Part shown: positions 28,592 to 64,000 of the stretch, piece by piece
How the letters are laid out: each line of letters opens with the position of its first letter
How positions within the stretch are numbered: the stretch's first letter is position 1
Assembly: GCF_000179915.2 (NCBI RefSeq)
Contig: NC_014963.1
Span: forward strand, 496,001 to 560,000
Direction of reading: 5' to 3'
Length of the DNA stretch: 64,000 bases
Source: Terriglobus saanensis SP1PR4
GTDB lineage: Bacteria; Acidobacteriota; Terriglobia; Terriglobales; Acidobacteriaceae
Notes under the pieces: generated by a model
Database searches by the model: none
What the model saw: the letters and a program-made list of their open reading frames with translations, nothing else
What the model was told of the DNA's origin: nothing
Translations under genes and position numbers: made by a program

Positions 28592-29056
28592 CTAGTGAAT
28601 TATCTGCGGCCCCGCCTTGACGGCGACGACGGAGATCTCGATCTTTGCTCCGCCGATCAAGCCTGCAACCTGCACGGTAGCGCGCGCGGGCTTCGGGTCT
28701 GGCATGAGCTTCTTGTAAACGGCATTCATCGCCGGAACGTCATTGAGGTCGGTGATGTAGACGGTGACGGAGACGATGTCCGTCAACTTGTAGCCCGCCT
28801 GCTTGACGACCTTTTCGATGGCGGCGATGGCGCTGGTGGTCTGGAAGGTGATATCGGTGCCGGTGACCTTGCCGTGGTCATCGGGGCCCTGCTGACCAGC
28901 GACATAGAGGGTGTTGCCAGCGATGTAGGCATTGCTGAAGGGCATGCCAGGCGTGAAGTCGATGGCCTTGTTCTGGGCGAAGGCCGAGGTGCCGAGAGCG
29001 AGCAAGCCTGCGAAGAAGAGGGTGCGCTTCGCTGCCTTTAAGACGGTGAGCTTCAT
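28592..29056 (-). CDS. Exported RidA family protein
   Basis: A 154-residue RidA homologue with a signal peptide (MKLTVLKAAKRTLFFAGLLA, cut near AFAQ). The mature part keeps the Rid fold: FTPGMPFSNAYIAGNTLYVA, a VEKVV-type helix with LTDIVSVTVYITDLND, and the conserved Arg in PARATVQVAGL followed by KIEISVVAV. Known RidA enzymes are cytoplasmic, so a periplasmic form implies imine or enamine production there, or a different role. The ATG at 29056 is chosen for the signal peptide. A second exported RidA is at 59689. Confidence 0.85.
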   Translation of the reverse strand: MKLTVLKAAKRTLFFAGLLALGTSAFAQNKAIDFTPGMPFSNAYIAGNTLYVAGQQGPDDHGKVTGTDITFQTTSAIAAIEKVVKQAGYKLTDIVSVTVYITDLNDVPAMNAVYKKLMPDPKPARATVQVAGLIGGAKIEISVVAVKAGPQIIH

Positions 29057-57857: not shown

Positions 57858-58078
57858 AGCACAAATTGAGCTGCGTTAGTTTCTCCTGTGCGTTGTTCCG
57901 GGAGGGGAGAAATGCGGCGACACGATGCCGCGTCTGCGATAGAGTGGAAGGAATCCCCTGAAACACTGTTGCGCATGGCTTGTCGCGCCGGAGAGAACTC
58001 TGCATCCAGTGGACGGCCTGTCTCGCATAACTTTTCGTCTTTAACTAACTCTGGTTCTTAATTTGACGAGGTGATTTG

Positions 58079-59632
58079 ATGAGCATTTCCAGGCGCAATT
58101 TCCTTTTGCGTGTCGGGCAGGCCGGCGGTTACAGCGCGGCTTTTACAGCAATGCAGGCCATGGGTTTGATGCCGATGAAGGCAGTGGCTGCCGAACCGAT
58201 TACAGCTACGGCGGGCGTGGGTAAGGGAACGAAGCTGGTGGTTCTGGGGGGCGGTATCGCAGGGCTTACGACAGCCTATGAAGCCAGAAAGCTGGGCTAT
58301 GACGTGACTCTGCTGGAGGCTCGGAAGCGCGCGGGTGGACGCAGCTGGAGTGCACGGAACGGCGACGTGGTGGAGTTTGTGGATGGAACCAGGCAGCAGG
58401 TTAGCTGGAGCGAGGGGCTGTACCAGAACATGGGACCGGGGCGTCTTCCCTCCGTGCACGGAACGATTCTTGGCTATTGTCGTGAGTTAAAAGTTCCACT
58501 GGAAGTTGAGGTCAATACTTCACGCTCGACTTTGCTGCAGAACGATAAGGTGAATGACGGCAAGCCGTATGTGCAGCGCAAGGCGATCAACGATACGCGC
58601 GGGCATGTGAGCGAGTTGTTGTCGAAGGCCGTGCAGAATGGCTCGCTGGACCAGGAGCTTTCCGCGGATGATCGTATCCGCATGATTGAGTTTTTGAAAA
58701 TCTATGGCGCTCTGGATAAGAGCAATACGTACCAGGGTTCTGATCGTTCGGGCATCAAGCAATATCCCGGCGCGGGTGCGCAGGAGATGGTCTTTGAGAA
58801 AGACACCATCCCGATGCATGTGCTGCTGGATGCAAACTTCTGGTCCGCAGAGCTGTATGAAGAGGCATGGGACTGGCAGGCGACGATGATGCAGCCGGTG
58901 AACGGTATGCAGCAGATTGCCAATGCTTTTGCGAAGTCCCTCGGGCCGATCGTGCACTATGACTCGCCGGTGAGCGAGATCAAGAAGACCGCAAAGGGTG
59001 TCAGCGTGACCTATGTGCAGGGTGGCGTCACGAAGCATGTAGAAGCCGAGTACGCCGTATGCGCGATGCCGTTGACGATCCTCAACAAGATTCAGGCGGA
59101 CCTGGATCCCGAGCACGCGGCGGCCGTGAAGCTGGGCGCCAGCCTGTATCGCGGATCGTTCAAGGTCCCGTGGGAATCGAACCGCTTCTGGGAGAAGGAT
59201 TACAACATCTATGGCGGCCTTTCGTTCCTCGCGCAGGGACCGAGCCCGGTATGGTATCCAAGCTGCAATCTTATGTCGGACCGTGGCATCATCGTGTCGG
59301 GTTACATGGATGAGACGGTCGGCGGCTTCAACAAACTTACGATGGAAGAGAAGTTTGCGGCATCGCGCGCGTCGATTGAGAAGCTGCACCCCGGCCATGG
59401 CAAGGAGCTGGAGAAACCAATCTTCTGCGGATGGAAGCACATTAAGTACAACGAAGGCTCATGGATTGGATCGACTCCGCCAGCGATGTACAACGTGATC
59501 ACGCAGCCTGACGGTCCGATCTACTTTGCCGGAGATCATACGAGCCACGTTGTGGGCTGGCAGGAGGGCGCTGCACTGAGCGGACGCCGCGCCATCCAGA
59601 TGATCAGCGACAAAGTCAAAGCGCGCGCGTAA
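58079..59632 (+). CDS. Tat-exported flavin-dependent amine oxidase
   Basis: A 517-residue FAD amine oxidase (MAO / L-amino-acid oxidase type). The N-terminus SISRRNFLLRVGQAGGYSAA is a twin-arginine signal, so the enzyme should be folded with FAD and moved to the periplasm. FAD-binding motifs are LVVLGGGIAGLTTAYEARKL and EARKRAGGRSWSAR; the C-terminal GPIYFAGDHTSHVVGWQEGA closes the flavin site. It would oxidise an amine or amino acid to the imine plus H2O2. GAGGTGA is 4 bases before the ATG (TTG at 58076 also in frame). It lies 56 bases upstream of an exported RidA. Confidence 0.9.
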   Translation: MSISRRNFLLRVGQAGGYSAAFTAMQAMGLMPMKAVAAEPITATAGVGKGTKLVVLGGGIAGLTTAYEARKLGYDVTLLEARKRAGGRSWSARNGDVVEFVDGTRQQVSWSEGLYQNMGPGRLPSVHGTILGYCRELKVPLEVEVNTSRSTLLQNDKVNDGKPYVQRKAINDTRGHVSELLSKAVQNGSLDQELSADDRIRMIEFLKIYGALDKSNTYQGSDRSGIKQYPGAGAQEMVFEKDTIPMHVLLDANFWSAELYEEAWDWQATMMQPVNGMQQIANAFAKSLGPIVHYDSPVSEIKKTAKGVSVTYVQGGVTKHVEAEYAVCAMPLTILNKIQADLDPEHAAAVKLGASLYRGSFKVPWESNRFWEKDYNIYGGLSFLAQGPSPVWYPSCNLMSDRGIIVSGYMDETVGGFNKLTMEEKFAASRASIEKLHPGHGKELEKPIFCGWKHIKYNEGSWIGSTPPAMYNVITQPDGPIYFAGDHTSHVVGWQEGAALSGRRAIQMISDKVKARA

Positions 59633-59688
59633 GAGTTTGCGCAGCCAGATATTGAACGAACGACTTACTGCAAGAGAAAGGGATTTCC

Positions 59689-60177
59689 ATGAAGAAGATT
59701 ATTTGCACAGCGACGATGATGTTGGCACTAAGCACGGTAACGCACGCGCAGGCTGTGGTGAAGCATCTGCAACCGAATGAGAAGAGCCCGATTGCCAACG
59801 GCGTCTGGGCGGGAGATACGTTGTATCTCAGCGGACAGCTTGCATCGCCAGTGACTGCTGCAGATCCTGCAAAGGGTGTTGCCGCAGCCTATGGAGATAC
59901 CGAGGCGCAGGCATTGAGCGCTCTGACAAAGATCCAGGCTTTGCTGAAGGAGCAGGGGCTGGATATGAAGGATGTTGTGAAGATGACGGTGTTTCTTGCG
60001 GGCGATCCTTCCAAGGGTGGGAAGCTGGATTTTCCGGGTCTGCAGGCGAGCTATACCAAGTTCTTCGGAACGAAGGATCAGCCCAACAAGCCCGCGCGCA
60101 GCGCCATGCAGGTGGCCGCTCTTGTGGCTCCCTGGGCATTGGTGGAGATCGAAGTGATTGCGGTTCGTTCCAAGTAA
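59689..60177 (+). CDS. Exported RidA family protein
   Basis: A 162-residue RidA homologue with a signal peptide (MKKIICTATMMLALSTVTHA). The mature part keeps SPIANGVWAGDTLYLSGQLA, LTKIQALLKEQGLDMKDVVK and the conserved Arg in KPARSAMQVAALV, then LVEIEVIAV. It directly follows the Tat amine oxidase in the same direction and converges with the Tat aminotransferase, so it is placed to hydrolyse imines or enamines made outside the cytoplasm. The strong hairpin at 60194 ends the transcript. Confidence 0.87.
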   Translation: MKKIICTATMMLALSTVTHAQAVVKHLQPNEKSPIANGVWAGDTLYLSGQLASPVTAADPAKGVAAAYGDTEAQALSALTKIQALLKEQGLDMKDVVKMTVFLAGDPSKGGKLDFPGLQASYTKFFGTKDQPNKPARSAMQVAALVAPWALVEIEVIAVRSK

Positions 60178-60193
60178 CAGTAATTGCAGCAAG

Positions 60194-60224
60194 AGAAAGG
60201 CGAAGCTAATGGCTTCGCCTTTCT
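60194..60224. terminator. Bidirectional terminator
   Basis: 13-bp stem AGAAAGGCGAAGC / GCTTCGCCTTTCT around TAATG, with T-rich flank on the plus side, between the convergent RidA and aminotransferase genes. Confidence 0.85.
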
Positions 60225-60241
60225 TCTTGCTTGTAAGTCGC

Positions 60242-61459
60242 CTACGAGAGCTGAGGGAAGGCTACGTCGACGAATGGATCGTGCAGAGTGGCCGTGGAAG
60301 GCACATCCATGACTTCCTTGAACGCTACCTGGAACTTCGCCATCTCACTTGGCGTGCCGACGGAGACGCGCACCATGTTGGGCCAGACAGCCCATGTGCG
60401 TCCGATGAAGATGTTCTTCGCGCGCATGGCGGCGATGACCTGACCGCCGGGACGGCCGGTATCGATCATGAAGCAGTTGGATTCAGAGGGAATGAACTTG
60501 TAGTGATTCGCCTTGAGGAAGGCGAAGGTATCGTTCCGTGTCTTCGCGATCAGAGCTTTGCGCGTAGGTACTAACTCTGCGTCGAGCAGACTGACGTTCG
60601 CTGCGACAGAGCCGGTGATCGGCATTGCGTTCTGTCCGAAGGGCTGTAATTTCGCGAGTAAGTCAGGACGGCCTACTGCGAAGCCGCAACGGATACCTGC
60701 CATGCCGTAGATTTTGGAGAAGGTACGCAGAACGATCAAGTCTTTGTCCGCGGCTACATACTCCAGAACGTTCTTCGCGTCGGAGAGGTGAATGTAGGCT
60801 TCGTCGACGAGTAGGATCGAACCCTTGGGCTTGTTTTCGAGCGCCCAGGCGATATCTTCCTTGGTGGTGGTGGTGCCGGTCGGGTTATTTGGATTACAGA
60901 TATAAATCACGCCAGCGTTCGGATCGGCAGCCACCATGGCCTTGACGTCGTGTGCGTAGTTCGCTGTCAAAGGTACCTTGGTGATCTTGGCCTTTGCGAT
61001 GGATGCGGCGCGCATGCCGGCTTCGTAAGAAGGATCTGCTGTGACGAAGCCTTTGGTGGGGGAAGTGAAGGCGAGCACGGAGTAATGCAGTGGCTCGGAG
61101 GAGCCCGCATAGACCATGATGTACTCCTCCTTCAGGCCATTCTGTTCGGCGAAGGTCTTGGTGAGCTTCTCCGTTTCGCCATCCATGTCATAGCGTCCGC
61201 CCTTGGGTGCGATGGCTGCGATGGCTTCGCATGCGGCCCTACAAGGACCCAGGGGATTTTCATTTGCGTTGATCATAACGGCGCCCGGTGGCGTAGCTGG
61301 ACGCACACGGCGCAATGGCGCGGAGGCACCGGGTGTTGGAGTCGCCTGATGTGCGGCCCAGGCGAAGTGCGCTTCGGTAAGGACCGGCAAGGAAGCAGCG
61401 ACGCTTGCGAGGCGCATGAAGGAACGGCGTGAGACCGCAGATGCGTTCTTCTGGGGCAT
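60242..61459 (-). CDS. Tat-exported class I/II PLP aminotransferase (HisC-like)
   Basis: A 405-residue fold-type I aminotransferase resembling histidinol-phosphate aminotransferase, but with a twin-arginine signal (SAVSRRSFMRLASVAASLPV), so it should be periplasmic. PLP sites: CNPNNPTGTTTT, ILLVDEAYIHLSDA (Asp and Tyr), and the Schiff-base Lys in LRTFSKIYGMAGIRCGFAVG near residue 246. Cytoplasmic HisC serves histidine synthesis; an exported copy cannot, so its substrate is open. Its convergence with an exported RidA and proximity to a Tat amine oxidase suggest a shared amine/amino acid pathway. Confidence 0.87.
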   Translation of the reverse strand: MPQKNASAVSRRSFMRLASVAASLPVLTEAHFAWAAHQATPTPGASAPLRRVRPATPPGAVMINANENPLGPCRAACEAIAAIAPKGGRYDMDGETEKLTKTFAEQNGLKEEYIMVYAGSSEPLHYSVLAFTSPTKGFVTADPSYEAGMRAASIAKAKITKVPLTANYAHDVKAMVAADPNAGVIYICNPNNPTGTTTTKEDIAWALENKPKGSILLVDEAYIHLSDAKNVLEYVAADKDLIVLRTFSKIYGMAGIRCGFAVGRPDLLAKLQPFGQNAMPITGSVAANVSLLDAELVPTRKALIAKTRNDTFAFLKANHYKFIPSESNCFMIDTGRPGGQVIAAMRAKNIFIGRTWAVWPNMVRVSVGTPSEMAKFQVAFKEVMDVPSTATLHDPFVDVAFPQLS

Positions 61460-62199: not shown

Positions 62200-64000
62200 A
62201 TGCATTGTAATTTCCAGATATCCCCAGTTGCTCGCAGGTGCCGCTCTCTCGCGCTCTTTCTTCTGCTCTTTATCGCGTTTGGAGTTTCTTTGGCCCAGTC
62301 GAACTACGGAGCGCTCCGTGGAATCGTGACGGACCTTCAAGGTGCAACGCTTCCGAATAGCGAGGTAACGCTCACTTCTCAGGCGACAAAGCTTTCGAGA
62401 AAAACAAAATCGAACGGTGCGGGAGAGTATGTTTTCAATGCGGTCGATCCGGGCAAGTATACGATCACTGCGACTTCGTCAGGCTTTCGCGCCATCGAGC
62501 AGACCGGCGTTACTGTGGATACGGGAAACACGCTCAATATCGATTTGAAGCTTTCGGTCGGTGCAGCCACGGACAGTGTGGAAGTAAGTGCGGCAGAGCC
62601 ACTGGTGGACAATGGTACCTCTTATAACGGTCAGATGATCGATTCGCAGAAGCTGCAGAATCTGCCAAATCCCGGTCGAAATCCTTTTCTCTTTTCCAAG
62701 CTCGACAATGCTGTGACGCCTGTCGGCGATCCGCGTTTCGTTCGTTTCCAGGACCAGAGCGGATCTTCCACGATCTCCATTGCCGGTGCGCCGCTTAGCT
62801 CGAACAACTACTCGATTGATGGTGTGCCGATTACTGACTTCAGTAATCGCGCTGTGATTATTCCCAGTATCGAGGGTGTGGATGAAGTCAAGCTGCAGGC
62901 CAACACTTACGATGGCGAGATAGGACGTACCAGTGGAGGTATGTTCAACACGACTCTCAAGTCGGGAACGACTTCACTGCATGGCGTACTGCAGGGTGAA
63001 ACCCGCCAGACCAACTGGGGCGCAAATCTCTTCTTCAATAACCACCATGCCGGCACTGCGGCCGACCCCAAGGTTCCCCGCGGCGCAGCCGAGTTTTATA
63101 GCTATGTCGGTAGCCTGTCTGGTCCAATTCCTCTCCCGTCTTTTCTCGGCGGCAAGGACAAGACCTTCTTCGCAATTACCGAAGAAGGATATCGGCAGCG
63201 GTCTCCCATCACGACAAACTCTTACGTCGTTCCAACCGATAAACAGAGAGCTGGTGACTTTTCCGAGATTGGAACTGTTACCGGTCCGACCACGTGCGCG
63301 CTGGGTTCCAATGGAACCGATACCATTTGCATCAAGAATCCTAATACCGGTCTCTATTTTGCCAATAACAATCTCGCTGGCTTCATCAATCCAGTGGGAC
63401 AGCAGTTGGTCAACGCTTATCCGCACGCCAACAGCAGCGTGACGAAGTATGCAGCCACGAACTTTACGGGTCAGGACACACTTGGAGATCGTGCCGATGA
63501 GTTCAACGGCAAGCTGACGCATCAGTTCGGTAGCCGTTGGTTAGCGGACTTCTACTATCTTCATTACGGAAGCAAAGAGCCGGGTGGGAACTCCCTGACC
63601 ACTCCCGCCGGCAGCTCGTCCTCTTACCTGCTTTACCGTAAAGTGGACGCGATTGGTATTCAAAATACGATCACTTTGAATCCGACGACGCTCCTCACCG
63701 TCGGCTTTGGATTCAATCGCTTCCCGAACGATACCCAGGACATCAGCAAAGGGTTCAACCAGGCGACCCTTGGTTTTCCCTCCACCTATGTATCTGCTCT
63801 GAGCAAAACGGGATTTCCTGCCATCACTGCGGATTCAGGATTGTCCGCCGAAGGAACTTCGAACTCCGGTCCCGCTGTGTACTTCTCAAGAAACTTTGTG
63901 GTGGGTCTGTCCAAAAGCATTGGAAAGCATAGCTTGAAGACCGGCTATGTTTATCGTGCGATCAGCCTTACCTTTACAAGTCTTAGCAATACCAGCGGCA
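62200..64000 (+). CDS. TonB-dependent receptor with carboxypeptidase-regulatory-like N-terminus, 5' part
   Basis: At least 600 residues, running off the window. The ATG at 62200 gives a signal peptide (RRCRSLALFLLLFIAFGVSL, AQ) with GGAGG 12 bases upstream. Then a CarboxypepD_reg domain (YGALRGIVTDLQGATLPNSE, VTLTSQATKLSRKTKSNGAG), the plug domain (QMIDSQKLQNLPNPGRNPF, NNYSIDGVPITDFSNRAV, VDEVKLQANTYDGEIGRTSG) and barrel strands (FAITEEGYRQRSPITTNSYV, KLTHQFGSRWLADFYYLHYG). This is the acidobacterial OMP/TonB receptor type; it imports or senses polymeric nutrients at the outer membrane. C-terminal strands not seen. Confidence 0.92.
   Translation, partial: MHCNFQISPVARRCRSLALFLLLFIAFGVSLAQSNYGALRGIVTDLQGATLPNSEVTLTSQATKLSRKTKSNGAGEYVFNAVDPGKYTITATSSGFRAIEQTGVTVDTGNTLNIDLKLSVGAATDSVEVSAAEPLVDNGTSYNGQMIDSQKLQNLPNPGRNPFLFSKLDNAVTPVGDPRFVRFQDQSGSSTISIAGAPLSSNNYSIDGVPITDFSNRAVIIPSIEGVDEVKLQANTYDGEIGRTSGGMFNTTLKSGTTSLHGVLQGETRQTNWGANLFFNNHHAGTAADPKVPRGAAEFYSYVGSLSGPIPLPSFLGGKDKTFFAITEEGYRQRSPITTNSYVVPTDKQRAGDFSEIGTVTGPTTCALGSNGTDTICIKNPNTGLYFANNNLAGFINPVGQQLVNAYPHANSSVTKYAATNFTGQDTLGDRADEFNGKLTHQFGSRWLADFYYLHYGSKEPGGNSLTTPAGSSSSYLLYRKVDAIGIQNTITLNPTTLLTVGFGFNRFPNDTQDISKGFNQATLGFPSTYVSALSKTGFPAITADSGLSAEGTSNSGPAVYFSRNFVVGLSKSIGKHSLKTGYVYRAISLTFTSLSNTSG

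Follow-up and report, generated by a model that had tools for sequence, protein, structure and literature searches.

What might a Rid protein with a predicted export signal do when its gene lies between those of a flavin amine oxidase and a pyridoxal 5′-phosphate (PLP) aminotransferase that also appear to be exported? Rid proteins are mostly regarded as cytoplasmic metabolite-repair enzymes, and the question is raised by three neighbouring genes of Terriglobus saanensis SP1PR4. They lie in a window of 64,000 nucleotides (the whole stretch analysed here, bases 496001-560000 of a single 5,095,226-base genome; Table 1). We propose that the locus probably encodes an exported L-amino-acid oxidation module, formed by an L-amino-acid oxidase (LAAO) and a Rid protein. 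This reading is underpinned by the protein families, export-signal motifs, catalytic residues, gene linkage and co-occurrence that the sequences provide.

The oxidase and the Rid protein

A first-pass annotation of the window had assigned the three genes to amine oxidases, RidA and PLP aminotransferases, and both positions and families are right: all three products match their Pfam families above cut-off (Amino_oxidase 120 bits, Ribonuc_L-PSP 72, Aminotran_1_2 119). The signals of the twin-arginine translocation (Tat) pathway that it read on the oxidase and the aminotransferase are likewise well conserved. The twin arginine of the oxidase, whose N-terminus is MSISRRNFLLRVG, is invariant in 20 aligned rows. 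That of the aminotransferase (AVSRRSFMRLA) recurs in all 21 linked homologues at the named loci, by which we mean the best 80 of 402 Rid3 relatives (some of the records are titled after metagenome bins, and such titles may be in error).

The closest solved match of the oxidase, by a wide margin, is 2jae, the L-amino acid oxidase of Rhodococcus opacus (E 4.3e-78, residues 49-514); the match to PF01593 has an E value of 2e-34. R122, Y409 and W494 are invariant in the 20 rows and align with substrate-site residues of 2jae, with chain numbering off by one. In the R. opacus enzyme Arg84 and Tyr371 bind the substrate carboxylate and Trp467 belongs to the aromatic cage; the carboxylate-binding pair and one cage tryptophan are all kept in T. 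saanensis. The flavoenzyme thus resembles an R. opacus-type LAAO and is predicted to be one. Its start ATG is preceded by GAGGTG at 58068-58073. The genome also has an LAAO paralogue (68%) without a Rid gene at L200:7164-10026 (G000:C1:3848163-3851025), convergent with the gene of a DgaE-like PLP enzyme with a Tat signal, the third in this genome (the other two are described below). As a second PLP link this DgaE/SelA-like gene was dropped, since it was not found at 20 other LAAO loci.

The Rid protein begins with MKKIICTATMMLALSTVTHA, followed by Q after the predicted cut. Export signals were judged by a home-made score of charge and hydrophobicity, with a hydrophobicity threshold of 1.6; the hydrophobic core of the Rid signal reaches 2.13. 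The score is passed at 69 of the 80 named loci, and the 11 failures are due to charge alone (9) or to hydrophobicity (2). Catalytic Arg137 and Glu153 are invariant in 24 rows. The first-pass annotation had likewise given the protein a signal peptide and an intact active-site arginine.

The subfamily had to be revised: the protein, first taken for an archetypal RidA, is better placed in Rid3. Aligned by eye, Ile35 takes the place of a Tyr in L001, the canonical RidA of this genome, with Leu in some relatives, and this Tyr to Ile replacement is a mark of Rid3 (PMC4433059). The nearest solved relatives are 9bka (PSPTO_3006) and 9bkc (PFL_1385), both listed as Rid3 (PMC5619798). A tree that took in 38 of the 80 named loci puts the T. 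saanensis protein apart from the canonical RidA, in a 42-row clade with both known Rid3 proteins (support 88/89, not starred, with several long branches).

These two relatives have been assayed on the product of the neighbouring enzyme type. In vitro, the activity of PFL_1385 and PSPTO_3006 on imines that an LAAO had made from Leu, Gln, Phe and His roughly equalled or exceeded that of the other subfamilies assayed; on Met imines RidA outdid Rid3 (PMC5619798 Table 4). They were also assayed in a Salmonella ridA mutant, and the accessible part of that paper describes no periplasmic role for them.

Conservation of the gene neighbourhood

We examined 200 genomes of the order, taking the top 73 Rid, 103 amine-oxidase and 47 of about 120 aminotransferase rows for linkage. 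The Rid gene lies directly behind the LAAO gene on the same strand in 56 of the 73 Rid rows, with 37-434 nt between match ends; a further row, G154 on contig C16, was not counted, its Rid gene being 6.2 kb away from the LAAO gene upstream of it, with a receptor gene between (L216). The LAAO-Rid linkage is real, and the absence of linkage in relatives, which would have spoken against the first-pass proposal, did not occur. An aminotransferase gene is found within 4 kb downstream of LAAO in 16 of the 47 rows (16 genomes, against a chance expectation of about 0.16), 15 times convergent and once on the same strand.

Co-occurrence points the same way. Under strict cut-offs, LAAO (rows of at least 52% identity) is present in 69 of the 200 genomes and strong Rid3 in 59, all of them with LAAO (Fisher 1e-40); none of the 131 genomes without LAAO has a strong Rid3. 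The strongest aminotransferase homologues occur in 33 genomes, again all with LAAO (Fisher 9e-19). Because the cut-offs were set after the lists were seen and the genomes are related rather than independent samples, these Fisher values overstate the case. A chance neighbourhood was rejected on the linkage and co-occurrence counts.

The partnership extends beyond the order. Of the 80 named loci, 69, Pseudomonadota and one cyanobacterium among them, have an LAAO gene on the Rid strand no more than 2.5 kb upstream; among the 75 with enough upstream sequence the figure is 66. Within 6 kb, a transaminase is encoded at 21 loci, an M19 dipeptidase at 12, and a receptor with 40% identity or more at 14. 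A CxxCH motif lies between LAAO and Rid at 11, all of them Pseudomonadota, and cytochrome-like open reading frames (ORFs) were inspected in six. Four Xanthomonas loci carry genes for a Tat-signal LAAO, a cytochrome c, a Rid3 with an export signal and a Tat-signal transaminase, in that order on one strand. As LAAO and Rid stay together in many relatives and in some distant bacteria, this Rid3 clean-up enzyme, of a kind usually thought internal, probably acts outside the inner membrane.

We also inspected 21 acidobacterial neighbourhoods chosen by hand, 15 of them (window included) for a linked transaminase, so that counts among them are not frequencies; the ORF caller overlooked some genes there (for example the dipeptidase and transaminase of L100, visible as L157). 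At least 6 of the 21 have a gene for an exported M19 dipeptidase downstream of Rid and on the other strand, with the transaminase gene beyond it in 4, and an M19 gene directly adjoins three LAAO genes that lack Rid. As some relatives thus add an exported dipeptidase, the module suggests peptide use. Homologues of the window receptor (49-82% identity) occur at 11 of the 21, window included. A single conserved receptor for all loci was rejected: five relatives (L107-L111) carry a different receptor group upstream of LAAO, and the receptor of L110 best matches another T. saanensis site.

Cytochrome c genes, sought as small ORFs with an early CxxCH at the 21 acidobacterial loci, yielded one doubtful ORF at one locus. 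A cytochrome-linked dehydrogenase in Acidobacteriota was accordingly set aside, with the reservation that the cytochrome c might be encoded elsewhere in the genome. Since no such gene was found at these loci, O2 rather than a cytochrome would be the electron acceptor of LAAO.

Table 1. Features of the T. saanensis locus, in window coordinates
Feature	Position	Strand	Basis
LAAO-like protein, predicted Tat-exported, flavin adenine dinucleotide (FAD), 517 aa	58079..59632	+	PF01593, 2jae match
Tat signal peptide of LAAO, SRRNFLL	58079..58192	+	cut after AVAA (residue 38) guessed by eye
Rid3-type protein, predicted exported by the general secretory (Sec) pathway, 162 aa	59689..60177	+	PF01042, nearest solved 9bka/9bkc, tree
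Sec signal peptide of the Rid protein, residues 1-20	59689..59748	+	home-made score; relatives
Terminator-like hairpin between convergent Rid and aminotransferase genes	60193..60225	+	folding -34.7 kcal/mol, z -6.42
PLP aminotransferase, predicted Tat-exported, PRK09105 subfamily, PtaA-related, 405 aa	60242..61459	-	NF006580
TonB-dependent receptor-like outer-membrane protein	62200..63999, runs beyond window end	+	PF25183, PF13620, PF00593

Within the window, 56 nt separate the LAAO stop from the Rid gene on a shared strand, and the two genes look like a single transcription unit. The aminotransferase gene is convergent with them behind a strong hairpin and is probably transcribed apart in T. 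saanensis. A terminator pattern scan gave 2 sites, this hairpin among them, against 4.9 in shuffles, and with fewer sites than shuffles the scan alone is no evidence for the hairpin. Sites from a sigma-70-like promoter scan were not above those in shuffled sequence, and a search of viral contigs gave no matches. The receptor-like gene, 1172 aa in full (L199:13201-16716), is a possible member of the locus.

The aminotransferase carries the lysine motif FSKIYGMA and is a member of NF006580 (PRK09105; 543 bits against a cut-off of 444). Its score against NF051461 (PtaA) is 423 bits, below that family's cut-off of 500, which suggests a protein related to PtaA and outside the PtaA equivalog. Like it, PtaA of Pseudomonas is a Tat-exported PLP transaminase, and a pyoverdine review assumes that the PLP of PtaA is somehow regenerated in the periplasm, leaving the manner open (PMC6206403).

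A predicted pathway and its alternatives

Imine formation by LAAO and hydrolysis by Rid are established reactions of these families (PMC5619798, PMC4433059); we infer that they also run in T. saanensis, and do so outside the cytoplasm. The TonB-dependent receptor would perhaps import dipeptides, from which, in some relatives, the exported M19 dipeptidase would free L-amino acids. LAAO would oxidise these to 2-imino acids outside the inner membrane, Rid3 would hydrolyse the imino acids to 2-oxo acids and ammonia, and the cell would take up both. Least certain is the part of the PtaA-like transaminase, which may draw on these amino and 2-oxo acids as a common pool, or be shielded by Rid3. Location, substrates, the action of Rid3 on the LAAO product, product uptake and the role of the transaminase are thus deduced from the sequences.

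The first-pass annotation had proposed a periplasmic pathway in which RidA finishes the deamination started by two exported imine producers. Its core, the exported LAAO-Rid pair, gains weight from linkage, co-occurrence, conserved residues and the signal scores, and the aminotransferase as an imine producer does not. The position of Rid between the two genes is as described, and the linkage recurs in Xanthomonas. As a mechanism the arrangement is mostly geometry, since transaminases are not known to release free imines and the gene is convergent.

Several results weigh against an exported module of this composition. Two in-frame GTG codons (residues 23 and 24) follow the Rid signal, so a shorter or additional cytosolic Rid form could be conceived; the stretch from the signal to the folded domain has no ATG in frame. 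LAAO is missing upstream at 9 of the 75 named loci with enough sequence, and transaminase linkage was not found at 59 of the 80. With a looser cut, 95 genomes of the order have an aminotransferase homologue, 54 with LAAO and 41 without. The M19 homologue of T. saanensis (67%) is encoded elsewhere in the genome and not at the LAAO locus. The receptor differs in five relatives, as noted, and with about 65 outer-membrane receptors of this kind in the genome its proximity is weak evidence.

The same counts bear on what the aminotransferase does at the locus. It may be a neighbour without functional tie, LAAO and Rid3 alone being the unit, as its convergent orientation, the intervening hairpin, the loci without it and the homologue-bearing genomes that lack LAAO would have it; the excess of linked genomes over expectation, the occurrence of both orientations and the linkage in Xanthomonas under a different gene order make this unlikely, if by no means negligible. 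Another reading is damage control, in which Rid3 mainly protects the PLP of the exported transaminase, and that of further exported PLP enzymes, against inactivation by reactive imines or enamines. This is the classical Rid role (PMC4433059), all 33 genomes with the strongest transaminase homologues have LAAO, and exported Rids adjoin exported PLP enzymes elsewhere in the T. saanensis genome. The transaminase is linked at just 21 of the named Rid3 loci, however, and the 41 genomes without LAAO count against it here too, leaving it doubtful as the main role; damage control and amino-acid catabolism can both be true.

Two further explanations concern the fate of the products. A role in signalling or plant-microbe contact, with tryptophan turned into indole-3-pyruvate and then auxin, would follow the Gluconacetobacter lao and Chlamydomonas LAO1 systems, which share the gene partnership. 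Tn5 insertions in Gluconacetobacter lao abolish indole-3-acetic acid (IAA), with cccA and ridA expression lowered too (PMC5053998), and Chlamydomonas LAO1 is required for IAA (PMC10805672). A broad LAAO would yield indole-pyruvate as one of many products, however, and the dipeptidase partner indicates general peptide use, which makes this role improbable. Least probable in our view is competition, where the exported LAAO yields antimicrobial hydrogen peroxide and Rid3 does no more than clear the imine away. Antimicrobial LAAOs of this kind have been described (PMC4417212) and the acidobacterial loci lack a detected cytochrome c gene; the Pseudomonadota loci with the intergenic CxxCH motif, by contrast, might avoid peroxide (compare NicA2/CycN, PMC9396064).

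Other Rid proteins with export signals, and known systems

The genome encodes 11 Rid proteins (12 matches, two in one protein), and 7 have predicted export signals, 3 Sec-like and 4 twin-arginine. The starts of some were picked by eye, and L229, with a score of 1.47 against the threshold of 1.6, was included on account of its twin arginine. Two Rids of the twin-arginine type adjoin exported proteins that match models of DgaE-type PLP ammonia-lyases at 151-171 bits, against a cut-off of 385. An exported Rid beside an exported PLP or flavin enzyme is, judged by the predicted signals, a repeated theme in this genome.

At L227:1368-10969 (G000:C1:981367-990968), consecutive genes encode a TonB-dependent receptor, an exported RraA-like protein, a DgaE-like PLP enzyme and a Rid, both with Tat signals, and an exported amidohydrolase/deacetylase. 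The row looks like an exported amino-sugar-acid pathway; the ong enzymes, by comparison, are largely cytoplasmic (PMC9537276). Among 60 genomes searched, the PLP-Rid pair of this type occurs at 14 of 17 loci, with a twin arginine on the Rid at all 14. At L230:3699-5691 (G000:C1:3680698-3682690), a second DgaE-like PLP gene overlaps a Rid gene, both products with Tat signals. A like search of 60 genomes gave 8 strong loci for this type, and at all 8 a Rid gene adjoins that of the PLP enzyme (the Rid signal was read in T. saanensis alone). The window holds a further Rid at 28595-29056 on the minus strand, with the Sec-like signal MKLTVLKAAKRTLFFAGLLALGTSAFAQ given the chosen start. Two more Rids with Tat signals (L228:6138-6584 and L229:6397-6846) have no obvious imine-forming partner among their listed neighbours.

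The LAAO-Rid partnership itself is not new, and to call the pathway undescribed, as the first-pass annotation did, is too strong in view of PMC5053998, PMC10805672 and PMC4433059. For lao-cccA-ridA of Gluconacetobacter diazotrophicus PAL5, the authors propose joint action with a periplasmic LAAO and report the same organisation in Caulobacter and Xanthomonas (PMC5053998). As in T. saanensis, a Tat-signal LAAO adjoins a rid gene; that cluster (GDI2454-2456, for which Xanthomonas loci served as stand-ins) includes a cytochrome c gene, whereas T. saanensis has just the short spacer. The accessible part of that paper describes neither Rid export nor a linked transaminase or dipeptidase. Chlamydomonas reinhardtii has an extracellular LAAO with a Rid partner in the periplasm (LAO1 and LAO2/RIDA; PMC10805672, PMC5053998); this is a eukaryote, likened here by description rather than sequence, and the parts of these papers at hand name no transaminase or dipeptidase partner. 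Clustering of Rid and amine-oxidase genes in general has also been published (PMC4433059). NicA2 and Pnao of the NicA2/Pnao-CycN system of Pseudomonas putida S16 are, like the LAAO, amine-oxidase-family flavoenzymes with predicted export signals (PMC9396064), but they give electrons to cytochrome c. The acidobacterial form thus differs from the published pairs in lacking a detected cytochrome c gene at the locus, in the dipeptidase of some relatives and in the convergent transaminase.

What is new, apparently, is Rid export signals across phyla, the transaminase and dipeptidase links, and the 7 of 11 Rids of one genome with export signals, two of them beside exported PLP enzymes. The open-licence literature searched gave no description of an exported Rid3 or of a transaminase or dipeptidase partner.

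In 2015 the substrates on which Rid1-3 act in vivo were still wholly unknown (PMC4433059). With Rid3 found, under strict cut-offs, solely in LAAO-bearing genomes, the protein acquires a named partner and compartment, and its role becomes directly testable. Amino-acid nitrogen could perhaps be stripped outside the inner membrane, and LAAO/Rid3 would be a possible source of amino acceptors for periplasmic transaminases. A wider and distinctly tentative idea is an envelope metabolism of reactive imines: several loci would each pair an exported Rid with an exported enzyme that forms imines or enamines, and at the present one LAAO, Rid3 and the PtaA-like enzyme would run a periplasmic transdeamination cycle. 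In such a cycle the transaminase would be reloaded by 2-oxo acids from LAAO and Rid3, and would pass to LAAO the amino groups of amino acids that LAAO cannot oxidise. If true, this would explain how PLP is regenerated in periplasmic transaminases.

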